Shown here: positions 42,043 to 45,365 of the stretch, one piece after another | Layout: each line of letters begins with the position of its first letter | How positions within the stretch are numbered: the stretch's first letter is position 1 | NCBI GenBank assembly: GCA_947492235.1 | Contig: CANLLZ010000001.1 | Span: forward strand, 124,001 to 188,000 | Direction of reading: 5' to 3' | Length of the DNA stretch: 64,000 nt | Source of the DNA: an uncultured Altererythrobacter sp. | GTDB taxonomy: Bacteria > Pseudomonadota > Alphaproteobacteria > Sphingomonadales > Sphingomonadaceae | Position numbers and translations under genes: made by a program | The notes under the pieces: generated by a model | The model's database searches: none | What the model was told of the DNA's origin: nothing | Seen by the model: only the letters and a program-made list of their open reading frames with translations

Positions 42043-42212
42043 GGTGGGGATACGGTTGCCACCCGTGGAAGGTTTCCGCCCGTGGCAAGTTTAATCGCGA
42101 CCGCAAAATAATCTGCTGATTTTGTATCCCTTTGTACCATGTGGGATATTCAACGCCGCTGATGCCGTCCGTATCCGGTCCCCATTGAAACCTACAGTTC
42201 AAGGGATCGAAC

Positions 42213-43079
42213 ATGAAAAACTTGATTATCGCCGCCGCAGGCATTGCGCTTGCTTCCACCACAGTCACCCTCGGCACGAGCGCCCAGGCAGCCGAAGGAC
42301 CGTTTAGCGGTCTCAAAAAAGCAGCTAAGAAAGTAGAAAATGCCGCCAAAGACGTGGAGCGCGCCGACCGCGCTGTGAAAGAAGCAAAGCGCACCAAGGG
42401 GCGCTCCGTGCTTCGCGGCGCAGCAAGCGCAGCAACCGGCGGCTATGTCGGAACAACAGCCGGATCGAACTATCCCAGGACGGCCAGCCGGGGTGACTAT
42501 CTGGGGCGCCCCGGCGCGGCTCCGGCCAAATATGCCAGCATGACACAGTGCGCCAACACCGGTCTGGGTAACGCATTTGTTGCAGTTGCCCGCGACTACA
42601 CCTTCTCCAAAGGGCTGAGCACCGAAACGCGCAGCGGCCTGATCGAGCGCGAGCCAGTCTCCCCGTCGAATGGCTGCGTGCTGCCGGGCATGGGCTCGGG
42701 CGAGGTGGTGTATCTCGAGGTCGATACCGCCAAATACAACAAATACGACTATGCACTCCAATGCATATCATTCGATGGCAGCGAGCAACTCGACAACACC
42801 AACGCGCCCCGCACCAACAATTACAGCGGCCAGCACGTCATGCTCCATACCGGCCACTCGCTGGGCTACACACCCACCGCCAGCGGCCGCAATTCGGATC
42901 GCGGCGCGGCCTATGACAAGCACCTTGAATCGCGCGGCCGGTCGATGATCACTTTCAACATGCCCGAATTGCACACCGACAAGGGCGGCACGGATTTCTA
43001 TTGTCAGCACTACAACGAGAAAACCGGCCAGAGCCTGGTGGCGTTCACCTATCGCCGCGGCCCGGTCAGCCGCCCGTAA
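42213..43079 (+). CDS. Secreted protein of unknown function with four cysteines
   Basis: 288 residues. Signal peptide 1-26 (cleavage after AQA), a basic Ala/Lys/Glu helix at 33-63 (KKAAKKVENAAKDVE...), a Gly/Ala patch and a C-terminal globular region with four Cys (MTQCANTG, NGCVLPG, LQCISF, FYCQHY), which could form two disulfides. No family is recognised. A ribosome site aaggga precedes ATG 42213. It is followed 130 bp later by a small Cys-repeat protein on the same strand. Probably exported to periplasm or surface. Confidence 0.7.
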   Translation: MKNLIIAAAGIALASTTVTLGTSAQAAEGPFSGLKKAAKKVENAAKDVERADRAVKEAKRTKGRSVLRGAASAATGGYVGTTAGSNYPRTASRGDYLGRPGAAPAKYASMTQCANTGLGNAFVAVARDYTFSKGLSTETRSGLIEREPVSPSNGCVLPGMGSGEVVYLEVDTAKYNKYDYALQCISFDGSEQLDNTNAPRTNNYSGQHVMLHTGHSLGYTPTASGRNSDRGAAYDKHLESRGRSMITFNMPELHTDKGGTDFYCQHYNEKTGQSLVAFTYRRGPVSRP

Positions 43080-43209: not shown

Positions 43210-43515
43210 ATGAAATACCGCATCCTCACGCTCGCTGCTGCTCTGACTGTCGGCACAATGCCGCAGGCCGCGATGGCCCAGTCCAGCAGCACGGAAGTGC
43301 CCAAGAATGGCTCCTGCCCGACAGGCTTCAAATCGAGCGGTTCCAGCTGCGTTTCGACCAATGGCGATGTCGCCATCGTCAAGGTCGGCAGCTGCCCCAG
43401 CGGCTTCAAATCCTCGCAGAAATACTGCGTCGGCGACAGCGGTGACTATGCCGAAGTGCGCAATGGCAGCTGCCCCAGCGGCCTGAAGACGTCGATGAAA
43501 TACTGCATCAAGTAA
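43210..43515 (+). CDS. Small secreted protein with three 26-residue Cys repeats
   Basis: 101 residues. Signal peptide 1-23 (AMA cleavage). The mature part has three tandem repeats at 33-48, 59-74 and 85-100: NGSCPTGFKSSGSSCV, then VGSCPSGFKSSQKYCV, then NGSCPSGLKTSMKYCI. Each has two cysteines spaced C-x10-C, with an exact 26-residue period, ending just before a C-terminal Lys. Disulfide-stabilised mini-domains are likely. The family is not recognised and no catalytic site is visible. An intrinsic terminator follows. The gene upstream (42213) also encodes a secreted protein. Confidence 0.75.
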   Translation: MKYRILTLAAALTVGTMPQAAMAQSSSTEVPKNGSCPTGFKSSGSSCVSTNGDVAIVKVGSCPSGFKSSQKYCVGDSGDYAEVRNGSCPSGLKTSMKYCIK

Positions 43516-43549
43516 GGTTGTCTGTCTGCGACCCAGGCGACCCCAAGGG

Positions 43550-43578
43550 AAGGGCGTGTCTCCATGGCACGCCCTTTT
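43550..43578 (+). terminator. Rho-independent terminator after the Cys-repeat gene
   Basis: Stem aagggcgtg (43550-43558) pairs with cacgccctt (43568-43576) around a 9-nt loop, followed by TTTTCC. It lies 34 bp after the stop at 43515 and ends the secreted-protein unit before the regulator gene. Confidence 0.8.
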
Positions 43579-43700
43579 CCCGTTGAATTGCAGCGCTTTT
43601 CGCAGGCGATTATTGCCCCGCAAGGACTAATCCCCCAAAAAGCAGCCCCGCATGCGCTACCTGAGCCGCATCCACCGCGCCCGCCCTTTGGAGATCTGCC

Positions 43701-45365
43701 ATGTCAAGCAAGGCTGAACCCGATCTGGAAGCGGTTCTGGCGCGCGCCTATTCGGTTATCTCGCAGCCCGGAGACGCGGTCGATCTGCTGGAGGAATTGG
43801 CGCAAGTTGGCCGCGAAGCGGGCGCTTTGGGCGAGACGGCAGAGATGCATTTCAGCAATGCCGCCGACATTCTGGAAAACGTCTATCCCAACGATCAGGT
43901 CGATTACGGCACGCTGGACACCCAGCCATCGGATCGGCCCAATTGCGATCTGGCGCTGGACCGAAATTTTCGCGTTGTCTTCGCCAATCCCATGGTGTTC
44001 GAAAAGCATGCCCCGGCAAAGAACGAGGCAGCCCCGGAGTGGCTATTCGATCCCGCGACCTACTCCGCCGATCGTGAGCGCATGAAGGCACTGGAGGAGC
44101 AGAAGGAAGGAGAGTTCATCCGGCTGTTCACCGATCCGGACGATGAGAGCGGGCGGTGGTTCACGGTCCGCGCGGCCCGGGCGCGAGAGAGAAATGTCAT
44201 CGCGTTCGACGCGGTCCGTCTGCGCTGGAGCGAACGCAGCGGCAAGGCTTTCCGCGAGGCGCTGAACCTGACAGAAACGGAAATCGCGCTGGTCAAGCAC
44301 ATGGTCGGCGGGGGGACCGTGCGCCAGTTCGCCGATCTGCGCGGCCGATCCCTGGGCACGGCACGCAACCAGCTAAAGGCGCTCCAGCGCAAGCTATCGA
44401 TCAATTCCAAGGAGGATTTGCTGCTGCTCTATGCGGGCTTTCTCCATTCGCTGGAATTGCCTCCGGAGAGCGTGTGGGTCGATGTGCATCGCTGCCAGAA
44501 TTTGTGGCAATCGGGCGATGGTCAGATCATCGGATGGGAGGAATACGGTGATCCGTCCGGCGCGCCGGTGCTGTTTTTCCATCCGATCGAAGGCGCGCTG
44601 CTGACCGAACCTCTGGCGCAAGTTGCAACCGAAAACGGCCTCAGGATCATCGCACCGTGGCGGCCGTTTCACGGCGATACGACGGGGGCCATTCAAGGGC
44701 CCAAGACACCGGAAGATTTCGCCGACCGGCTGCCCGGATTTCTGGACCATCTGGAGGTGGACCAATGCACCGCGGTCACCACCCATGCGGGTGCGCCTTA
44801 TATGTTTGCCTTTGCCCAGCGGCATCCCGCGCGGGTGAAAGCGGCTGTCGGGCTGGGTGCCTTCGTGCCGATTTACGATGCCGAGGGCATGGGGATGCTG
44901 CGCAAGGCGCACAGGAAACAGCTGCGGCTTGTCCGCATCGCGCCGGCCTTTGCGAAAATCTATATGCGCGCCATGCTGGCGACCATCGGGACCGGCGAAT
45001 TCCACCGGTTCGTGCAGGAGTTCTATCAGGGCTGCGAGCGCGAGCTGGCCAGTATGCAAAGCCCCGCAATGGTCAGTCTGCTGCGCAGTTCGGCCAGCTA
45101 TGTCGTGCGCGGGCGGTTCACCGGCCTTGTCGATACGATGCTCAACTGGGCCGCCGACTGGAGCCCCTTGTGCAAGAACATTCAGGTGCCCGTCCACATG
45201 ATCTACGGGTCCGAGGATGCGACCACGAGCGCTGAACTCGCGCGCAAAGCGTGCGACGCATTCGGCTTTGCGGAGCCTGAATTCGTGCCCGATGCGGGCA
45301 GTTTCCTGCTACTCGACCAGCCCGAAATTGCCTGGGCGCGGGTGCGGGCGATTGCCGCCAACTGA
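43701..45365 (+). CDS. LuxR-type regulator fused to a catalytically dead alpha/beta-hydrolase
   Basis: 554 residues. Residues 60-175 look PAS-like, 183-250 form a LuxR/GerE-type HTH (LTETEIALVKHMVGGGTVRQFADLRG...), and 258-554 an alpha/beta-hydrolase fold (GWEEYGDPSGAPVLFFHP, the usual RIIAPWRPFHGDT oxyanion-type region). The nucleophile elbow reads VTTHAGAPY (359-367), without any Ser, and the His position reads DAGSFLLL (S534); D506 remains in GSEDATT. Ser and His are therefore missing, so a binding rather than hydrolytic role is inferred: a ligand sensor coupled to DNA binding. ATG 43701 follows a ggaga ribosome site. Adjacent to a secreted-protein pair upstream and rimO (convergent) downstream. 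Confidence 0.8.
   Translation: MSSKAEPDLEAVLARAYSVISQPGDAVDLLEELAQVGREAGALGETAEMHFSNAADILENVYPNDQVDYGTLDTQPSDRPNCDLALDRNFRVVFANPMVFEKHAPAKNEAAPEWLFDPATYSADRERMKALEEQKEGEFIRLFTDPDDESGRWFTVRAARARERNVIAFDAVRLRWSERSGKAFREALNLTETEIALVKHMVGGGTVRQFADLRGRSLGTARNQLKALQRKLSINSKEDLLLLYAGFLHSLELPPESVWVDVHRCQNLWQSGDGQIIGWEEYGDPSGAPVLFFHPIEGALLTEPLAQVATENGLRIIAPWRPFHGDTTGAIQGPKTPEDFADRLPGFLDHLEVDQCTAVTTHAGAPYMFAFAQRHPARVKAAVGLGAFVPIYDAEGMGMLRKAHRKQLRLVRIAPAFAKIYMRAMLATIGTGEFHRFVQEFYQGCERELASMQSPAMVSLLRSSASYVVRGRFTGLVDTMLNWAADWSPLCKNIQVPVHMIYGSEDATTSAELARKACDAFGFAEPEFVPDAGSFLLLDQPEIAWARVRAIAAN

Follow-up and report, generated by a model that had tools for sequence, protein, structure and literature searches.

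A LuxR-type regulator carrying an alpha/beta-hydrolase-fold domain without a catalytic triad, and a conserved candidate operator before linked secreted-protein genes

In the 64,000-nucleotide stretch of an uncultured Altererythrobacter genome analyzed here (contig CANLLZ010000001.1, positions 124,001 to 188,000; hereafter the window), a single open frame of 554 codons encodes a regulator in which a PAS-like domain, a LuxR-type helix-turn-helix (HTH), and an alpha/beta-hydrolase-fold domain lie in one chain. Two genes for secreted proteins, both with signal-peptide-like starts, are found immediately upstream, one encoding a protein of 288 residues and the other a Cys-rich protein of 101 residues, and the 288-residue gene is itself preceded by a conserved inverted repeat (Table 1). 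We found that the hydrolase domain does not hold a nucleophile-acid-His triad, having H362, D506, and S534 at the three positions.

The three-domain architecture had been proposed in an earlier prediction made from this DNA alone (the original prediction), and it was confirmed by a structural model, Pfam, the domain calls of relatives, and profile matches. Pfam placed Abhydrolase_1 at residues 289-540 with an expect value (E) of 1.7e-6, above the family cut-off. GerE, the LuxR HTH family, was called by Pfam in 19 of 31 aligned relatives and was not called in the query itself; the relatives' GerE calls, the HTH alignment, and the helices of the model together place the query among the LuxR-type proteins. 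Within the HTH, residues T220, R222, Q224, and K226 are invariant across the 30-row clade to which the query belongs. No PAS domain was called by Pfam in the query, and calls in relatives were weak and few. The best solved structures matched by a profile of the N-terminus were PAS sensors, namely FixL (1d06, E 0.0018) and 3bwl (E 0.0048). The AlphaFold2 model, built with 22 sequences (mean predicted local distance difference test score, pLDDT, 83; predicted template modeling score 0.69), showed N-terminal helices, a PAS-topology sheet at residues 84-171, HTH helices at 178-249, and a complete hydrolase fold at 267-554. Because the model topology is joined by profile matches at E 0.002-0.005, the N-terminal domain is likely, though not certain, to be a PAS domain. 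The hydrolase fold was predicted with confidence, with pLDDT blocks of 76-98 across about residues 261-554. This part of the predicted model matched solved structures in Foldseek (E 1.1e-13) and could be superposed on 9wlv by VIA-align with a Z of 28.2 and a root-mean-square deviation of 2.9 over 281 residues. As modeled, the regulator is a one-component protein with a complete hydrolase fold.

To locate the catalytic positions, the domain was aligned with standalone hydrolase relatives, which have Ser at the nucleophile position in 13 of 14 cases and the Asp and the His in all 14. Residues T360-T361-H362-A363-G364 align with the G-x-S-x-G elbow, so the nucleophile position is occupied by His362. 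A363 was considered for this position and was ruled out by comparison with the standalone hydrolases, which points to H362. The claim that Ser has been lost from the elbow and the catalytic His replaced by Ser, with the acid kept, was thus borne out by the alignment. The same three residues, H/D/S, are common to the query and to relatives at 59-62% identity. The 30-row clade of the query is well supported in the tree; the catalytic His is found in none of its members, and 8 of the 30 retain Ser at the nucleophile position.

A survey of the same fusion in other genomes, also proposed in the original prediction, yielded 114 full-length fusions taken from whole genomes. In these, the residue two places ahead of the conserved Gly column was taken as the nucleophile, since the aligner gapped there in 12 rows. 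Neither Ser/Cys nor His was present at the catalytic positions in 73 of the 114, while Ser without His was seen in 18, His without Ser in eight, and Asp at the nucleophile position together with His in five. Only 10 fusions had Ser/Cys-Asp-His, in contrast to 13 of the 14 standalone relatives. The notion that every fusion is dead is ruled out by these 10 and by the five with an Asp nucleophile and His; the elbows of the latter (L038-L041 and L128; L, G, and C numbers are our handles for loci, genomes, and contigs) resemble those of dehalogenases and epoxide hydrolases. The triad-bearing fusions lie outside the query clade, many of them in one other proteobacterial family (code f188, same phylum). 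Those with the same architecture in f188 include L125, L130, L166, L167, L169, and L173, and they may be active enzymes or hydrolyzing receptors. It had been reasoned that homologues with an intact triad in the same position would show the alignment to be wrong. Such fusions do exist (for example L125, L130, L167, L042, and L033), and they bear the alignment out instead of overturning it. The residue losses are neither chance nor a sequencing slip, since they are shared at 59-62% identity and both residues are missing in 73 of the 114 fusions. From the aligned sequences, catalytic loss is family-wide, though not in every fusion; long branches in the tree leave the number of independent triad losses unsure.

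Table 1. Features of the regulator locus; positions are those of the window.
Feature	Position	Strand	Evidence
Regulator, 554 residues, PAS-like / LuxR-type HTH / pseudo-alpha/beta-hydrolase	43701..45365	+	Coordinates and strand agree with the original prediction
PAS-like domain, residues about 81-173, helical region before it	43941..44219	+	AlphaFold2 topology; profile matches to PAS structures
LuxR/NarL-type HTH, residues 176-249	44226..44447	+	Model helices; GerE in relatives; invariant residues
Alpha/beta-hydrolase-fold domain, residues 265-554	44493..45362	+	VIA-align and Foldseek matches
His362 at the catalytic nucleophile position	44784..44786	+	Alignment with 14 standalone hydrolases, Ser in 13
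Asp506, acid kept	45216..45218	+	Asp in 29/30 clade members
Ser534 at the catalytic His position	45300..45302	+	Ser in 24/30 clade members, His in 0/30
Candidate operator dyad TGTACCATGTGGGATATTC, consensus TGTMCCANNTGGKAYATTC, core TGTNCCA-NN-TGGNACA	42133..42151	+	Kept in 22 distinct loci
-10-like element TATCCG, exactly 20 nucleotides after the dyad's ATTC	42172..42177	+	TA spacing across loci
Secreted 288-residue protein, signal peptide by eye, presumed main target	42213..43079	+	Regulator linkage in 12/12 genomes
Secreted Cys-rich 101-residue protein, CPSGFKSS repeats	43210..43515	+	Strong matches in 9/299 family genomes, all adjoining the regulator
Terminator-like hairpin and short T-run between Cys-rich gene and regulator	43547..43580	+	Fold energy z -4.3 versus shuffles

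Conservation of the domain that has lost its triad was compared with that of the rest of the chain. Mean identity to the query was 51% in close relatives and 34% in mid relatives for the hydrolase core, 37% and 20% for the PAS-like domain, and 68% and 50% for the HTH. Within the hydrolase core, H294, G298, P319, W320, and P322 are invariant across the 30-row clade, and the cap/lid region (391-488) is less conserved, at 23% in mid relatives. Full-length fusion frames are intact across many genera. Judged from this pattern, the dead hydrolase domain is under selection, and the pattern fits a putative non-catalytic pocket. The earlier picture of a dead hydrolase joined to a LuxR HTH therefore holds, with the fold and putative pocket residues conserved without catalysis.

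Both secreted-protein genes adjoin the regulator in other genomes despite shuffled gene order, being upstream in Erythrobacter-like genomes, downstream in relatives from Sphingopyxis and Parasphingorhabdus, and divergent or convergent elsewhere. The 288-residue protein was found in 12 of 299 family genomes, in all of which it adjoins a regulator copy, one of them apparently a fragment, and strong matches to the Cys-rich protein were found in nine, again always adjoining the regulator. For both proteins, the probability of such linkage by chance is below 1e-12 (hypergeometric, with genomes treated as independent). At the locus with the apparent fragment (G249:C5:105000-110000; L156, L022, L105), the 288-residue gene and the dyad persist beside it. 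The 288-residue protein belongs to no Pfam family and gave no confident fold match (Foldseek best E 4.6e-3 with a template modeling score below 0.3; best Z 5.1); its family has invariant Cys residues. The terminator-like hairpin of Table 1 is absent from the + strand list of a simple terminator scan.

At every locus examined (22 distinct loci), the 288-residue gene has the inverted repeat TGTMCCANNTGGKAYATTC, or a match to it, in front. In the 2.97-Mb genome of the query, the dyad listed in Table 1 is the sole match with two or fewer mismatches, and three-mismatch matches occur near the control level. A TA was found exactly 20 nucleotides past the ATTC of the dyad in 18 of 21 loci and in zero to two loci at any other spacing, within sequence that is otherwise not conserved. 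Taking this TA as the start of a -10 element places the dyad center at about -43, which is the class II activator position for LuxR-type activators. The conserved TGTNCCANNTGGNACA dyad, centered there by its spacing, is a putative operator whose sequence is unlike the Streptomyces PAS-LuxR consensus. No sigma-70 consensus was found by a simple promoter scan between 42050 and 45450. The proposal that the regulator controls the adjacent secreted-protein promoter thus gains sequence support from the constant spacing between the conserved candidate dyad and a -10-like TA.

Nine exact dyad matches were found in the 299 family genomes, all within the 15 genomes that carry a close regulator, and eight of the nine adjoin the regulator. 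Loci outside the motif-defining set, such as L064, L069-L072, and L082, also show the dyad beside a regulator. In L069, L070, L072, and L082 it precedes large PKD/Ig-repeat genes near the regulator, and the PKD/Ig-repeat proteins of L069 and L070 include autotransporter domains. The lone exact dyad that lies far from any regulator is in G093, and the gene behind it is again of this type, encoding a signal-peptide-bearing, 1079-residue PKD/autotransporter protein (L224:1230-4550; G093:C1:667500-675500). Since this unlinked match falls on the same gene type, it is the best independent support for the dyad defining a regulon. At L070, L071, and L072, the dyad is flanked by two divergent regulators, of which only one has retained the nucleophile-position Ser. 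Upstream of six of 80 more distant regulators, against 0.3 expected, we found a symmetrically flanked related core, CCANNTGG, and this suggests, from sequence, family-wide autoregulation; L029, L133, L141, and L173 are among the regulators that it precedes.

The genome of the query also holds three paralogues of the regulator (L002, L003, and L004), which adjoin genes for YadA-type trimeric adhesins. The idea that these paralogues use the same dyad was not supported at the score used, the consensus having no second site in the genome. At L192 (G000:C1:1856000-1872000) and L193 (G000:C2:75000-88000), paralogues either alternate with large genes for YadA-type trimeric autotransporter adhesins or diverge from them, and contigs C1 and C2 of the same genome have further YadA genes at their ends. 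YadA-like genes likewise flank relatives of these paralogues in other genomes (five genomic regions, L199-L203), and as many as five surround a single regulator (L202). Other relatives adjoin autotransporters (L208) or PAN-domain secreted proteins (L196 and L198), and several have no secreted or surface gene neighbor. These neighborhoods suggest that the regulation of secreted or displayed proteins is the common theme of the family.

Taken together, the catalytic loss, the predicted fold, the conservation, the genetic linkage, and the dyad with its spacing, all observed in sequence and computation, make it fairly probable that the regulator joins a pseudo-hydrolase receptor to a LuxR activator that controls secreted or surface proteins. 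The LuxR-type HTH dimer would bind the 16-bp dyad near -43, upstream of the 288-residue gene (42213), and would recruit polymerase, switching on this gene and probably the Cys-rich gene behind it as well. The hydrolase domain, no longer catalytic but with the fold retained and the pocket rim conserved, would act with the PAS-like domain as the receptor for a small molecule, whose binding would alter dimerization or DNA affinity. Several points weigh against this account. There is no second dyad upstream of the regulator gene in the query genome, and a different regulator of the same clusters could be the one that uses the dyad. The -10-like element is weak, and it is from position alone that we infer activation. 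The linkage probabilities overstate the evidence because the loci are related. As a whole, the earlier interpretation is partly supported.

The dead domain could instead be a dimerization or protein-interaction module that binds no ligand, with sensing left entirely to the PAS-like domain or to some partner protein. Alpha/beta-hydrolase folds often dimerize, and a ligand is not needed to explain catalytic loss. The RsbQ hydrolase contacts the PAS domain of RsbP (PMC3183031), and the lower conservation of the cap/lid region in mid relatives is what would be expected without a common ligand. However, H294, G298, P319-W320-P322, D506, and S534, near the vestigial active site, are among the best conserved residues of the domain, whereas conservation along the chain is lowest in the PAS-like domain. 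A surface role alone leaves the conserved pocket rim unexplained, and we regard this alternative as rather unlikely. We give still less weight to a fusion that undergoes a single or a slow reaction with its ligand through another residue, in the manner of D14/KAI2. Although Ser is kept at the nucleophile position in eight of the 30 clade members and the acid in nearly all, the His general base is missing in all 30 rows and none of Ser, Cys, and Asp occupies the nucleophile position of the query, making such reactivity very improbable. A decaying fusion, with its hydrolase part under no selection, would account for the loss of two catalytic residues and for the apparent regulator fragment in G249 (L022). 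This is largely refuted by the full-length frames in many genera and by the higher conservation of the hydrolase core relative to the sensor domain, and we consider its probability close to negligible.

The direction of control could also be the reverse, with the regulator repressing the secreted-protein genes until released by a ligand. The dyad in the window can be read as lying inside a core promoter (TTGTAT, 17 nucleotides, GATATT), yet this places the -10 within the dyad's own symmetric bases, and it would not account for the TA kept 20 nucleotides downstream in most loci. Absence of a sigma-70 consensus in the simple scan is as found at activator-dependent promoters, and the palindrome to which PAS-LuxR regulators bind, 16 bp long, falls in the -35 region (PMC9774167). 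Repression is therefore improbable, and activation through a class II position remains our preferred reading. More tentatively, the regulators may form a family of single-chain transcription factors, widespread in proteobacteria, in which an enzyme became a hormone-type receptor within the regulator chain and switches a conserved dyad before genes for secreted or surface proteins such as autotransporters, YadA adhesins, and small Cys-rich proteins, the small molecules perhaps coming from other cells; this broader proposal is possible, and we hold it with less than even confidence.

If the pseudo-hydrolase receptor reading is correct, bacteria would have their own counterpart of the pseudo-hydrolase receptors, one for which predictions of the operator and the target genes are already available. 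Ligand discovery would be directly testable, using a reporter behind the 23-bp site and one protein. Since triad-bearing and triad-less fusions exist side by side, the change of an enzyme into a receptor can be traced, and the coexisting forms would provide a natural series for this transition. Plasmid-borne relatives are annotated merely as alpha/beta hydrolases, which means that a family of transcription factors has been filed as enzymes.

In the open-access literature, which excludes most subscription papers, we found no paper on LuxR/hydrolase fusions or bacterial pseudo-hydrolase regulators, so that the regulator family is, as far as searched, previously undescribed. LuxR-type quorum-sensing regulators and LuxR solos have a LuxR HTH and a dyad operator near -42; the query shares the HTH, and its candidate dyad has a similar position. 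No autoinducer-binding domain was called by Pfam in the query or is among the families shown for the 31 relatives. Standalone alpha/beta hydrolases, such as 9wlv and the arylesterases, share the C-terminal fold and have the triad, of which Ser and His are missing in the query. The GID1 gibberellin receptor and related plant pseudo-hydrolase receptors are hormone receptors built on an alpha/beta-hydrolase fold with an incomplete triad. The query resembles them in combining this fold with an incomplete triad, a mechanistic analogy only, since GID1 has no DNA-binding domain, belongs to another hydrolase subfamily, and has a known ligand. PAS-LuxR regulators of the PimM type in Streptomyces bind a 16-bp palindromic operator, CTVGGGAWWTCCCBAG, in the -35 region (PMC9774167). 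They are pathway-specific and combine an N-terminal PAS domain with a LuxR HTH; the query has the LuxR-type HTH and a likely PAS domain before it. Their chains end at the HTH, whereas about 290 residues of hydrolase fold (265-554) extend beyond it here, the candidate operator is TGTMCCANNTGGKAYATTC, and the presumed targets are secreted or surface proteins rather than antibiotic genes. In RsbQ-RsbP of Bacillus subtilis, the hydrolase and the PAS protein are separate and the triad is required; outputs of RsbQ-PAS systems are given as phosphatase, kinase, and diguanylate cyclase, with DNA-binding output not listed (PMC3183031). RsbQ-RsbP is nonetheless the nearest bacterial analogue, an alpha/beta hydrolase and a PAS domain serving together as the sensor of a signaling output, and it differs from the regulator described here in having adjacent separate genes and an intact triad where the query has a single 554-codon frame and a triad that has been lost.
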